DNA of 40,446 bases from NCBI GenBank assembly GCA_021776345.1, contig JAJFGC010000121.1, positions 1 through 40,446 of the forward strand. Reading direction: 5' to 3'. Source of the stretch: Hyphococcus sp. GTDB lineage: Bacteria; Pseudomonadota; Alphaproteobacteria; Caulobacterales; Parvularculaceae. Under the pieces are notes generated by a model. It did not search any database. It had not been told where the DNA came from and worked only from the letters and a program-made list of their open reading frames with translations. Position 1 is the stretch's first letter, and each line of letters starts with the position of its first letter. Shown here in pieces: positions 19,716 through 22,689 of this stretch. Made by a program: the position numbers and the translations under genes.

Positions 19716-20828
19716 TTGGCAAAGGCATTGTCATCGAATGATCTGGTGGTCCTCGGGCTTGAGACAAGCTGTGATGACACGGCCGCGGCAATTGTTCGCC
19801 GCGGCGGCGACGGTCGGTGCGACATTCTCTCAAATGAGGTCTGGACCGATCATGACGACCATGCCGCCTTTGGCGGTGTCGTGCCGGAGATCGCCGCGCG
19901 CAGTCATGTAGAGCGCCTCGACGCGACCATCGAAAAAGCAATCGCCAACGCCGGTATGGCCTTTGACGATATTGACGCCATCGCCGCGACCGCCGGCCCT
20001 GGCCTTGTTGGCGGGGTGATGGTGGGGCTGACCACTGGCAAGGCGATCTCAATTACCCACAAAAAACCGTTAATCGCCATTAACCATCTTGAGGGCCATG
20101 CACTATCGGCGCGTATGACCGAGCCCGCCGATTTCCCATATCTCTTATTACTGATTTCCGGCGGCCATACCCAGCTCATCTTGGTCGAAGCACTGGGCCA
20201 ATATCAACGACTGGGTGCCACCATTGATGACGCCGCCGGCGAGGCGTTCGATAAAACGGCCAAGCTCCTTGGCCTCGCCCAGCCCGGCGGCCCGGCGATA
20301 GAAAAGGCCGCTGCGATCGGGGACGCCCGAAAGTATGACTTCCCCGAGCCGCTGAAAAAAAGGGACGGTTGCGATTTCTCATTCTCGGGGTTGAAGACCG
20401 CCGTGCGCGAGGCGGTTCATGGCCTGAAAGATCCGGGTTCGCAGGATGTTGCTGATTTAGCCGCGTCCTTTCAATATGCAGCCGCGCGGCACCTGGTCCA
20501 GCGTACAGATCGGGCGATGGACAAGGTCCATAATAAAGATTCTGGTATGCGCCTGGTGGTCGCCGGTGGTGTTGCTGCGAACCGTGAAATCAAATCTACT
20601 CTGAATTCGCTATGCGAACTCAAGAATTGGGTATTACTGGCGCCGCCAGTGAAATACTGCACTGATAATGGCGCAATGATCGCCTGGGCCGGCGCTGAAC
20701 GGCTGGCGGCCGGTATGACCGAGCCTCAAGCCGACATTTTGATGATGGCGCCGCGGGCGCGATGGCCCCTCGCCCCGCCGTTGGAAGGGCAAGAAATCGG
20801 CGGCGGCCGGAAGGGTCCAAAGGCTTAA
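19716..20828 (+). CDS. tsaD: tRNA N6-adenosine threonylcarbamoyltransferase
   Basis: A 370-residue ASKHA-fold enzyme that, with TsaB and TsaE, transfers threonylcarbamoyl to A37 of ANN-decoding tRNAs. GLETSCDDTAAAIV, FGGVVPEIAARSHVERL, the metal-binding NHLEGHALSA and the C-terminal YCTDNGAMIAWAG are all intact. The C-terminus carries a family-variable tail. The start is a TTG; 19716 with TAGGAA nine bases upstream is preferred, and a TTG at 19728 is possible. Its last four bases overlap the stop of the oppositely oriented Rrf2 gene. Confidence 0.95.
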   Translation: MAKALSSNDLVVLGLETSCDDTAAAIVRRGGDGRCDILSNEVWTDHDDHAAFGGVVPEIAARSHVERLDATIEKAIANAGMAFDDIDAIAATAGPGLVGGVMVGLTTGKAISITHKKPLIAINHLEGHALSARMTEPADFPYLLLLISGGHTQLILVEALGQYQRLGATIDDAAGEAFDKTAKLLGLAQPGGPAIEKAAAIGDARKYDFPEPLKKRDGCDFSFSGLKTAVREAVHGLKDPGSQDVADLAASFQYAAARHLVQRTDRAMDKVHNKDSGMRLVVAGGVAANREIKSTLNSLCELKNWVLLAPPVKYCTDNGAMIAWAGAERLAAGMTEPQADILMMAPRARWPLAPPLEGQEIGGGRKGPKA

Positions 20829-21262
20829 TTCTCTGCGGCCATACCGTCAGCTTTGACCTCACGCACAATCTCTTTGAGGCTTGAAGATTTAAGGGTCTCG
20901 AAAAAAGCCGCTTCTGCTTTCAGGGTCACCCGACGCAATGCCGGCTGGACATTCCGGCCGACGACACATTGCTGGTCAGCAGCGCCGCGGGGCGGCTTAA
21001 CAATCCCCGGCTCTTCCACCGCTTCGTAGATATCCAGCAGGGATATCTTTTTTGGGGCTTTGGCGAGAACGGCGCCGCCGCCCTTGCCTAACCGCGACGT
21101 CGTCAATCCTGCTTTTGCAAGGTCACAGAGAATGCGCCGCACAAAAGCAGCGTTGGTGTTCACGCTTGCGGCGATCTGATCTGAGGTGACCGCTTCGTTG
21201 CGATTAATCGCGAGCGCCGCAAGAATGTGCGTTGCAACACAAAACCTGGTTGATGTCGCCAA
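20825..21262 (-). CDS. Rrf2 family transcriptional regulator
   Basis: A 145-residue winged-helix regulator. The DNA-binding part (STRFCVATHILAALA, then TSDQIAASVNTNAAFVRRILCDLAKAGL) and the wing region with GKGGGAVLAK match the YwnA-like branch of Rrf2. The three-Cys iron-sulfur set of IscR/NsrR is not present; a lone Cys lies in the QQCVVGRNV stretch where thiol sensing could occur. I place the start at TTG 21262 because GAGG lies six bases upstream. A longer frame begins at TTG 21274. A palindrome sits about 30 bp upstream. An SDR gene remnant beyond it was perhaps once a regulated target. Confidence 0.86.
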   Translation of the reverse strand: MATSTRFCVATHILAALAINRNEAVTSDQIAASVNTNAAFVRRILCDLAKAGLTTSRLGKGGGAVLAKAPKKISLLDIYEAVEEPGIVKPPRGAADQQCVVGRNVQPALRRVTLKAEAAFFETLKSSSLKEIVREVKADGMAAEN

Positions 21263-21290
21263 AACTGGCCTCAATGTTCGTCATCTCAAG

Positions 21291-21531: not shown

Positions 21532-21640
21532 AAAAAGCGCGAAAGCCGGGGTGGGCTTTCGCGCTTAAAATCGCTGCGGCGTTAGGGAGGTGCGTCCATA
21601 CAGGGGGGAGGGACAACCGCCGCAGCGACCAGGGGTTCTT
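21532..21640 (-). ncRNA. Candidate 3'UTR-derived small RNA with C-rich loops
   Basis: Between the stop of the 39-codon gene and the terminator the minus strand forms a perfect 11-bp stem, TCGCTGCGGCG/CGCCGCAGCGA (21618-21628 with 21571-21581). It encloses a 36-nt loop with two anti-Shine-Dalgarno-like stretches, CCCTCCCCCC and CACCTCCCT. The terminator hairpin follows directly and its loop reads CACCCC. Such CCUCC-loop RNAs, made from the 3'UTR of a small-protein mRNA, are known in Rhodobacter (the CcsR RNAs). I infer a similar type here. Homology is not claimed, and the 5' end is a guess. Confidence 0.5.
21535..21566 (-). terminator. Strong rho-independent terminator
   Basis: Perfect 13-bp stem AAGCGCGAAAGCC / GGCTTTCGCGCTT with a six-base loop. 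On the minus strand it is followed by a run of U (stem plus TTTC, five Ts in all). It ends the transcript that begins at the promoter near 21861 and carries the 39-codon gene. On the plus strand it is followed by AAAA and would not act. Confidence 0.88.
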
Positions 21641-21653
21641 TGTTTGCGTTCTG

Positions 21654-21773
21654 TTAGGCAATAACGCCTTGTGTGGCGAAATCGGCGACGCCAAACAGGA
21701 CGGCGCCAAGGATGCCAGTCAACGTCAACGTGATGGCGGCTTGGAGGGCAATATTTTTAAATGATGCGGTCAT
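21654..21773 (-). CDS. 39-residue single-helix membrane peptide
   Basis: A small gene of 39 codons, ATG at 21773 to TAA at 21654. The peptide begins MTASFKNIALQ, continues with a hydrophobic helix (AAITLTLTGILGAVLFGVA, about residues 12-30) and ends DFATQGVIA. It has one Lys before the helix, giving an N-in orientation. Support comes from its own promoter 88 bp upstream, a plausible GAGATTGAG ribosome region, the strong terminator downstream and isolation from other genes. I do not recognise a family. It may mainly serve as the mRNA part of a locus whose 3'UTR yields a small RNA. Confidence 0.6.
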   Translation of the reverse strand: MTASFKNIALQAAITLTLTGILGAVLFGVADFATQGVIA

Positions 21774-21860
21774 GGCTCAATCTCTTTTCATTCTGATCTA
21801 AGGCGTTTCTTGTTTTTGTCGCCGTCGTTCCTGCGATCAGGTATCTGCGGCGATGAGAGG

Positions 21861-21889
21861 GAGATAGGGTTTCATTGAAAACTTGTCAA
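21861..21889 (-). promoter_or_regulatory. Promoter of the small-peptide/sRNA transcript
   Basis: On the minus strand TTGACA (21889-21884), a 17-base spacer and TATCTC (21866-21861). The -35 is perfect and the spacer ideal. The -10 is preceded by CCC, which also fits heat-shock-type (RpoH) promoters. Transcription would start near 21854, giving an 80-nt leader. The remaining AT-rich bases up to 22047 hold nothing I can name. Confidence 0.55.
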
Positions 21890-22047
21890 TGAACGATATC
21901 GTAAATATTCATTTTTTGGCCCCGTTTTTTCTAACACAAACCGTAGATTAGCTTAAAACATATAATTTTCAGTGCCTTAAAGGAAAAATTCAATTTACAG
22001 AAATACCGGTCATAGGCGATACACTAGCAAAAACTTGACTAATTCGG

Positions 22048-22689
22048 CTAAGTTACAGCAACATTCGCGGGTGGTTTTCCATGTTGGTGGCGCGCGGCGC
22101 GCCAGGAAAAGCCATCGAGAACAAGATCGATCACGCCATTGAGCTCGGTTGCCAGGGCGTCATAATCGCCCTCATGGAAAACCGCAGGACTGGTAAAGCG
22201 ATAGCCTGCATCTTGAAGGATTTTCGCCATCGCCGGCGCATTATCTACGGCAAAACTTCCATCGGCATCGCCCTCAGCCAGGATCTCCGCCAGCACTCGC
22301 CCCTCTGCGCTTTCCCACTCAAGCGCAACTTTGGGGCGCTCCGAAATCAGCTCCGACGACAATTCATAGGCCTTTGGCTTATCGTGAAAGCGCTCATAAG
22401 CGATCTTGAACTTTAGCAGAAAGAAGTCCCGAAGTTTTTGAGATGGCGTCCGGCCCGGCGCATCCACCACCGATCGGAGCGTCGCCACCTGCTCGCCCCG
22501 GAGGACACGTACGAACATTTCGGCGATATCAAGCTTAGACGGGAAGTAGCGATAAAGATTGCCAGTGGACATGTTGCAGTCATCTGCAATCTCCGACATG
22601 GTCGTTTTCTTATAACCATAGTAAAGAAATCGCCGGCTTGCGGCGTTCAGGATTTGCTTTGCTGTCTCATCCAGATTCTCAGTCGGCAT
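22048..22689 (-). CDS. TetR/AcrR family transcriptional regulator
   Basis: A 213-residue regulator. The N-terminal helix-turn-helix is typical: AKQILNAASRRFLYYGYKKT, TMSEIADDCNMSTGNLYRYF, PSKLDIAEMFV (about residues 9-60). The remainder is the helical ligand-binding/dimer domain, which is too variable to name a ligand. ATG at 22689 follows AAGGA by five bases. A perfect TATAAT (minus strand, 22717-22712) lies upstream, although no matching -35 at normal distance is seen. It is divergent from gpsA with 71 bp between starts. Its target may be elsewhere, since the nearest gene on its 3' side is the small peptide gene. Confidence 0.9.
   Translation of the reverse strand: MPTENLDETAKQILNAASRRFLYYGYKKTTMSEIADDCNMSTGNLYRYFPSKLDIAEMFVRVLRGEQVATLRSVVDAPGRTPSQKLRDFFLLKFKIAYERFHDKPKAYELSSELISERPKVALEWESAEGRVLAEILAEGDADGSFAVDNAPAMAKILQDAGYRFTSPAVFHEGDYDALATELNGVIDLVLDGFSWRAARHQHGKPPANVAVT

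Follow-up and report, generated by a model that had tools for sequence, protein, structure and literature searches.

A putative TetR-controlled transcript in Hyphococcus with a predicted membrane micropeptide and a C-rich 3′UTR RNA

Layout of the unit

We analysed a 40,446-nt stretch of Hyphococcus sp. DNA (the window; GenBank assembly GCA_021776345.1, contig JAJFGC010000121.1), in which a short unit lies among the neighbours tetR, rrf2, tsaD and gpsA. The original prediction had placed a promoter, a leader, a 39-codon frame, a hairpin and a terminator on the minus strand of positions 21532–21889, and all of them are present there. The features, in the order of transcription, are as follows.

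22048–22689, minus strand: tetR, a TetR-family regulator (TetR_N + TetR_C_27), the proposed repressor of the unit
21888–21913, no strand assigned: 26-bp palindrome AATGAATATTTACGATATCGTTCATT, the proposed TetR operator, extending over bases 1 and 2 of the −35 box
21884–21889, minus strand: −35 box TTGACA, conserved in alignment A2 (rows anchored on TTGACA)
21861–21866, minus strand: −10 box TATCTC, separated from the −35 box by a 17-nt spacer
21774–21854, minus strand: leader of about 80 nt, from a putative start site near 21854 to the ATG
21654–21773, minus strand: 39-codon ORF for a 39-aa hydrophobic-helix peptide, MTASFKNIALQAAITLTLTGILGAVLFGVADFATQGVIA
21569–21630, minus strand: two-tier hairpin, from folding and covariation
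21618–21630 with 21569–21581, minus strand: outer stem of the hairpin, 36 nt between the arms
21611–21614 with 21594–21597, minus strand: inner stem of the hairpin, GUCC with GGAC
21603–21612, minus strand: C-rich stretch 1 (CCCUCCCCCC), which begins with two bases of the inner stem and continues into the apical loop
21584–21592, minus strand: C-rich strand 2 (CACCUCCCU), on the 3′ side of the internal loop
21535–21566, minus strand: intrinsic terminator with a 13-bp stem and a CACCCC loop, followed by a T-run

The leader holds a ACAAGAAACG box and an A-rich ribosome-binding region, GAAAAGAG. By eye, the ACAAGAAACG box was seen about 40 nt 5′ of the ATG in many of the 26 related loci that we compared.

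The hairpin had been described as having an open 36-nt loop with C-rich stretches. Its size and its C-rich stretches stand, but the loop is not open, as a conserved inner helix lies inside it. This GUCC/GGAC helix divides the 36-nt loop, and with it the C-rich stretches: the 13-nt apical loop contains CUCCCCCC, and the internal loop carries CACCUCCC in its 3′ strand. The terminator loop, CACCCC, is the third C-rich segment of the 3′UTR.

The adjacent TetR gene and its palindrome

The tetR product matched Pfam PF00440 (E 9.2e-13) and PF17935 (E 4.5e-12), and its AlphaFold model (mean pLDDT 89) found QacR first in a PDB comparison, with fatty-acid regulators lower. Both hallmarks of the family, the TetR_N HTH and the TetR-type all-helical fold, are thus present. 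Relatives at the 26 loci are 60–80% identical to the TetR of the window, with a nearly invariant HTH region. A TetR search among named genomes gave 30 loci, in Marinicaulis, Parvularcula/Parvularculaceae, Amphiplicatus, or genomes named as Alphaproteobacteria only, and a search of plasmids with the TetR gave no match.

The gene order is well kept. Immediately upstream of the unit, all 26 loci have the tetR gene on the same strand; tsaD lies downstream in 25 (L015 ends before it), and gpsA is found on the far side of tetR in 23 (of the rest, L002 and L007 lie at contig ends, and L004 has no gpsA in 579 nt). In 19 of the 26 loci an Rrf2-family regulator (20825–21274 of the window, minus strand) separates the unit from tsaD; it is probably an independent neighbour, since the other 7 are without it.

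TetR regulators ordinarily repress by binding a palindrome over the −35 box. Here, a palindrome AATGAAY-N12-RTTCATT abuts or overlaps the −35 box, and most rows of the promoter alignment carry it exactly or nearly so. Searching nine genomes (our own and eight relatives), we found one exact match per genome in 9/9, always at this promoter; places with one mismatch numbered 2 in our own genome and 6 in the eight relatives. Thus, the unit, which had been called self-contained, is tied to the adjacent TetR gene through the palindrome over its −35 box.

TetR and the RNA of the unit also occur together. Within the family, 22/22 TetR-bearing genomes have the RNA and 0/19 listed genomes without TetR have it, a count in which 14 loci trained the RNA model and which is inflated by the relatedness of the genomes. 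One genome that is 100% complete (G020) lacks the peptide, the RNA and the TetR together. In another (G065; L188/L189), the gpsA-tetR pair lies about 13.5 kb away from the unit and tsaD, and the palindrome, with one mismatch, is at the promoter of the unit. Comparison of the genomes therefore shows TetR and unit to be inherited together and the palindrome to be conserved, and unique as an exact match. Control of the unit by TetR is well supported by this comparative evidence, and we infer repression by the adjacent TetR with release by an inducer.

A profile search of 289 genomes across the class detected the TetR in 32 (E 1e-30 or better), and we read the 31 loci besides our own. A palindrome with at most two mismatches occurred within 750 nt downstream of tetR in 23/31 of them, against 1.8 expected from shuffles, although for some single palindromes with one or two mismatches as many as 4 of 40 shuffles did equally well. 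Downstream of tetR, L133 has a palindrome with three mismatches, and seven loci (L123, L128, L129, L136, L137, L139 and L140) have none. A hydrophobic frame of 30–60 aa followed the palindrome in 17/23 loci by script (0.9 expected; 1 antisense), and 17 frames had a start 50–145 nt past the palindrome, against 0.2 expected. By eye, L117 also has such a frame after its palindrome, and L133 has one too; the contig of L130 ends before the hydrophobic frame is reached. At L141 and L144 other frames, not the micropeptide, follow the palindrome. This TetR type can thus have other targets, since 7 of the 31 loci are without a downstream palindrome and L141–L144 have the palindrome before other frames. 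At L142 and L143, which have the same TetR type and a downstream palindrome, the next gene is epimerase-like by eye and there is no micropeptide in that place.

Either gpsA or tsaD, or both, lay beside the TetR in 25 of the 31 fetched class stretches, and both in 14. Within the same order, the TetR was found in 95/200 genomes at E 1e-25. From 73 loci in two of its families (f2 and f4) we hand-picked 20, of which 18 had a palindrome with at most three mismatches and 16 had the hydrophobic peptide as well; at most two mismatches were found in 15/20, against 1.1 expected. A palindrome (at most two mismatches) was also present in the 160 nt 5′ of tetR itself at 10/31 class loci (0.7 expected) and at 9/20 order loci (0.2 expected). 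This suggests autoregulation at those loci and ties the site to this TetR. Scanning 385 class genomes with a strict promoter pattern, which misses most true loci, we obtained 5 matches, all adjoining this TetR. At some loci (L118–L122, L131, L133 and L163–L165) two successive small hydrophobic frames were seen instead of one.

The peptide and the structured 3′UTR

The peptide is present in 25/28 genomes of the genus (our own being one of them) and, outside it, in a single other genus of the family (G031, E 2.9e-5). The three misses are G020 (100% complete), G005, where a tetR fragment lies at a contig end, and G018 (76% complete). Matches at E 0.4–0.7 were treated as chance, and two weak peptide matches, L027 (E 0.013) and L028 (E 0.14), were left out. 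Mean pS was 0.62 against a mean pN of 0.29, and the median dN/dS was 0.27 over 269 unsaturated of 325 pairs, which are not independent. By this comparison the peptide is shown to be coding, conserved and under purifying selection. In the sister genus (g6) it has diverged, with its size and place kept at the 5 loci read beside TetR and in G065.

The frame had been read as a membrane helix and not a DUF1127 protein, and a hydrophobic helix without a DUF1127 match is what we found: the window peptide had no Pfam match at E 0.1, and DUF1127 was absent among 30 peptides at E 0.01. We set aside, as unconvincing, the candidate families from Pfam and NCBIfam, namely a SecE model (E 0.026), DUF5665 (1 of 30 peptides, E 0.005) and an archaellin model (1 of 30 peptides, E 0.004). 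Homology of the peptides across orders was likewise rejected on sequence, as alignment A7 gave 24% mean column identity and zero conserved columns. A7 being too divergent, we judge relatedness across orders by position, size, hydrophobicity and context. The single hydrophobic helix would probably place the peptide in the inner membrane.

The 3′ part of the transcript is strongly structured. Its 116 nt had a folding energy of −51.7 kcal/mol, where shuffles gave −29.4 ± 3.2 (z −7.0; 0/200 reached it). When the 3′ part of each locus was folded singly, the fold had C-rich loops in 26/26 loci and showed an outer stem, an inner stem and a terminator, or near variants of these. MAFFT alignment A1 misaligned the hairpin. 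For this reason we used A4 (14 of the 26 rows, picked for good alignment) and A6 (model-fitted from A4), a choice that leans towards structure and with which the single folds of all 26 agree. In the 14 well-aligned rows, 15/28 pairs changed on both sides. The 33 model-aligned rows (32 distinct), in an alignment that was fitted to the structure, had 21/28 pairs changed on both sides and 96.1% of cells paired. Not one of the five measures was reached in 500 shuffles; the slid controls were 35–45% paired. Comparison thus shows the RNA structure to be under selection, and conservation of stems and C-rich loops in relatives, on which the original prediction had staked itself, is borne out by the covariation and the loop counts.

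A scan with the RNA model found the element in 34/62 genomes of the family (genus 25/28, g5 1/1, g6 8/9, elsewhere 0/24), 14 of the found loci having trained the model. Matches on the opposite strand were terminators read backwards and were treated as chance. The scan also gave a second, weaker C-rich two-hairpin element (32.5 bits, E 0.005) at about 656–739 of L190 (G014:C104:20155-20238); the palindrome was not found within the 1401 bases fetched there. No Rfam 15 family reached the cut-off in the window or at 20 distant loci, and one match at E 2 was dismissed as chance.

To follow the C-rich segments across lineages, we counted C-rich 8-mers without G, sense versus antisense, within 200 nt past the last peptide. 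The counts were 48:3 for the 26 g1/g5 loci, 14:0 for 5 sister-genus loci and 31:0 for 18 loci of other orders, where 16/18 had at least one and nine had two. At 17 f2/f4 loci the count was 8:6, so that the strand bias is absent though the peptide and the palindrome remain, which means that the RNA does not belong to every version of the module. The constant core is therefore TetR, palindrome and peptide, the C-rich RNA being a frequent, non-universal companion. When 14 loci were folded, the C-rich 8-mers lay mostly in stem loops; at L121, 2/5 C-rich 5-mers were unpaired, and L131 had no C-rich 8-mer in the folded 175 nt, its own being located just beyond. L132 (1338–1440) and L134 carry four tandem hairpins with CCUCCC-type loops 3′ of the peptide, the first being CCUCCUCCC; those of L132 were folded and those of L134 were read from the sequence.

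Proposed action and alternative readings

We favour, at a probability of roughly 0.6, a TetR switch that governs one transcript with two products, a membrane micropeptide and a C-rich 3′UTR RNA that probably occludes Shine-Dalgarno sites. As long as no inducer is present, a TetR dimer made from the adjacent gene would sit on the palindrome over the −35 box and block the promoter. A ligand would free TetR from the palindrome, and one transcript of about 320 nt would then be made. Its 5′ part would be translated into the 39-aa micropeptide, whose one hydrophobic helix would probably lodge in the inner membrane and act there. Meanwhile, the two-tier hairpin and the terminator would expose three C-rich single-stranded segments in the 3′UTR. 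The RNA, either within the mRNA or processed from it, would probably base-pair with other mRNAs at their G-rich Shine-Dalgarno sequences and lower their translation. By analogy with known RNAs, such pairing by the C-rich segments is plausible and is the hypothesis that first suggests itself; processing of the RNA and its action in trans are inferred. Against this pairing, a perfect 8-nt complement in the arrangement AGGGAGGT-N3-10-ATG occurs at only 2 places in the 3.6-Mb genome.

The peptide might instead be the sole functional product, and the hairpins a stabilising 3′UTR and a terminator without any action in trans. Consistent with this, TetR, palindrome and peptide are the broadest constant, as in 16/20 hand-picked loci of f2/f4, two families without the C-rich bias, and the dN/dS of 0.27 points to the peptide. 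But C-rich sequence is kept in the loops of unrelated stems across lineages, and the four tandem hairpins of L132 and L134 exceed the needs of a terminator. We consider a peptide acting alone rather unlikely.

Heat-shock control, which the original prediction had raised from the CCC before the −10 box, is not indicated. A simple sigma-70 scan of the window did not list the promoter because it demands a final T, which TATCTC does not have; support for the promoter is comparative. The −35 region reads ATTGACA across the 26 aligned loci, whose rows were anchored on TTGACA, and TTGTTT, TTGATT or others elsewhere. The CCC 5′ of the −10 box is not constant among the loci. Housekeeping promoters of alphaproteobacteria read CTTGAC-N17-CTATAT, which the promoter of the unit resembles, and nothing calls for an RpoH reading. 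Of an RpoH-type promoter, what we observed, from sequence alone, is the TTGACA −35 with a CYTAT-type −10, and a −10 of this type fits alphaproteobacterial RpoH promoters. The locus could then be one for heat-shock or oxidative stress driven by an RpoH-type factor, as in ccaF1/CcsR, whose account gives a precedent for such a reading (PMC8625941). With TTGACA in the genus-level loci, other −35 sequences elsewhere and a palindrome covering the promoter, this is improbable.

Returning to the TetR switch with a trans-acting RNA, weak pairing of the RNA with its own message would be expected if the RNA spares it. Comparing the C-rich loops with the ribosome-binding region of its own peptide, the region to which this comparison was confined, we found a median rank of 22 among 30 background ORFs at 25 of the 26 loci (L022 unscored), the background being 30 mechanical ORFs of at least 200 aa from this window for all loci. 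The window locus ranked 28 of 30. Five of the 25 loci (L004, L013, L014, L017 and L018) ranked 7 to 12, pairing better than most background ORFs. Poor self-pairing is thus a tendency, compatible with self-avoidance and mildly against an antitoxin acting in cis. A type I toxin-antitoxin pair, with a membrane-damaging peptide toxin and the C-rich RNA as antitoxin, is very improbable: the size and hydrophobicity of the peptide are like those of small membrane toxins, but RNA and peptide share strand and promoter, the loops are mostly poorly complementary to the peptide's own ribosome-binding region, and the peptide without a C-rich RNA is common in f2/f4.

A wider version of the preferred reading, a TetR switch over peptide and RNA, is tentative and to our mind falls short of even odds. 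It would make the unit an ancient alphaproteobacterial signalling module, often between gpsA and tsaD, whose TetR responds to a ligand that is membrane-active or lipid-like and controls, in essence, one target only. The transcript would answer twice, with the membrane micropeptide and with a 3′UTR anti-Shine-Dalgarno RNA that holds translation down. Lineages would have elaborated or lost the C-rich RNA again and again, while repressor, palindrome and peptide stayed.

The analysis brings three things together as a unit that can be tested: an unnamed TetR regulator, widespread micropeptides without annotation, and a structured RNA that Rfam does not contain. Should the RNA act in trans, it would be an anti-Shine-Dalgarno regulator governed by a repressor for which there is apparently one strong site, and a cultured strain would allow a direct search for the inducing signal and the targets. 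Among the papers listed in a search of an open-access library, none described a TetR-peptide-RNA unit, which is no proof of novelty.

Several known RNAs resemble the unit in part. The alphaR8 RNAs (SisA-D, MmgR), as described in PMC12559287, have an anti-Shine-Dalgarno seed and an intrinsic terminator, with pairing tested for SisA, and lie beside the gene for FGase (N-formylglutamate amidohydrolase) in most, not all, species. The unit shares the intrinsic terminator and, as a candidate only, the seed. However, its neighbours are tetR, rrf2, tsaD and gpsA, with no N-formylglutamate amidohydrolase gene, and the alphaR8 core 10-mer UUUCCUCCCU was found in 0/192 loci searched. UdsC (PMC9779115) is a 67-nt RNA from the 3′UTR of the hypothetical-protein mRNA RSP_7527, and in this origin it resembles the proposed RNA of the unit. 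It differs in being RpoHII-dependent, and a check of that paper's text for C-rich, CCUCC and TetR found none of these terms.

The 'cuckoo' RNAs SmelA075 and SmelA099 of Rhizobiales are described in PMC3927594 as CCUCCUCCC hairpin modules with proposed anti-Shine-Dalgarno loops. Hairpin modules with candidate anti-Shine-Dalgarno loops are common to them and the unit, and the first hairpin of L132 carries CCUCCUCCC itself. The unit differs in its inner GUCC/GGAC helix and in its neighbours tetR and tsaD.

CcsR RNAs have C-rich loops, and a DUF1127 small protein is their usual upstream neighbour. In Rhodobacter sphaeroides, ccaF1 (RSP_6037) is described as a small-protein mRNA whose 3′UTR is processed into several sRNAs, CcsR1-4 (PMC8625941). 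The likeness to CcsR that had been proposed for our locus holds in kind, as both pair a small-protein gene with a structured, C-rich 3′UTR and have C-rich loops on stable stems that end a small-protein mRNA. They differ in that the peptide of the unit has no DUF1127 match, in that a TetR palindrome lies at the promoter of the unit, and in that the unit has one two-tier hairpin where CcsR has four homologous RNAs. By analogy, the unit may work like the CcsR and cuckoo RNAs, but it carries neither of the marks of membership, a DUF1127 protein and CCUCCUCCC, the loop 9-mer of cuckoo/CcsR, which had 0 matches in the window and is present in the C-rich hairpins of the distant L132 and L134. The tandem hairpins of those two loci resemble the four-copy arrangement of CcsR.
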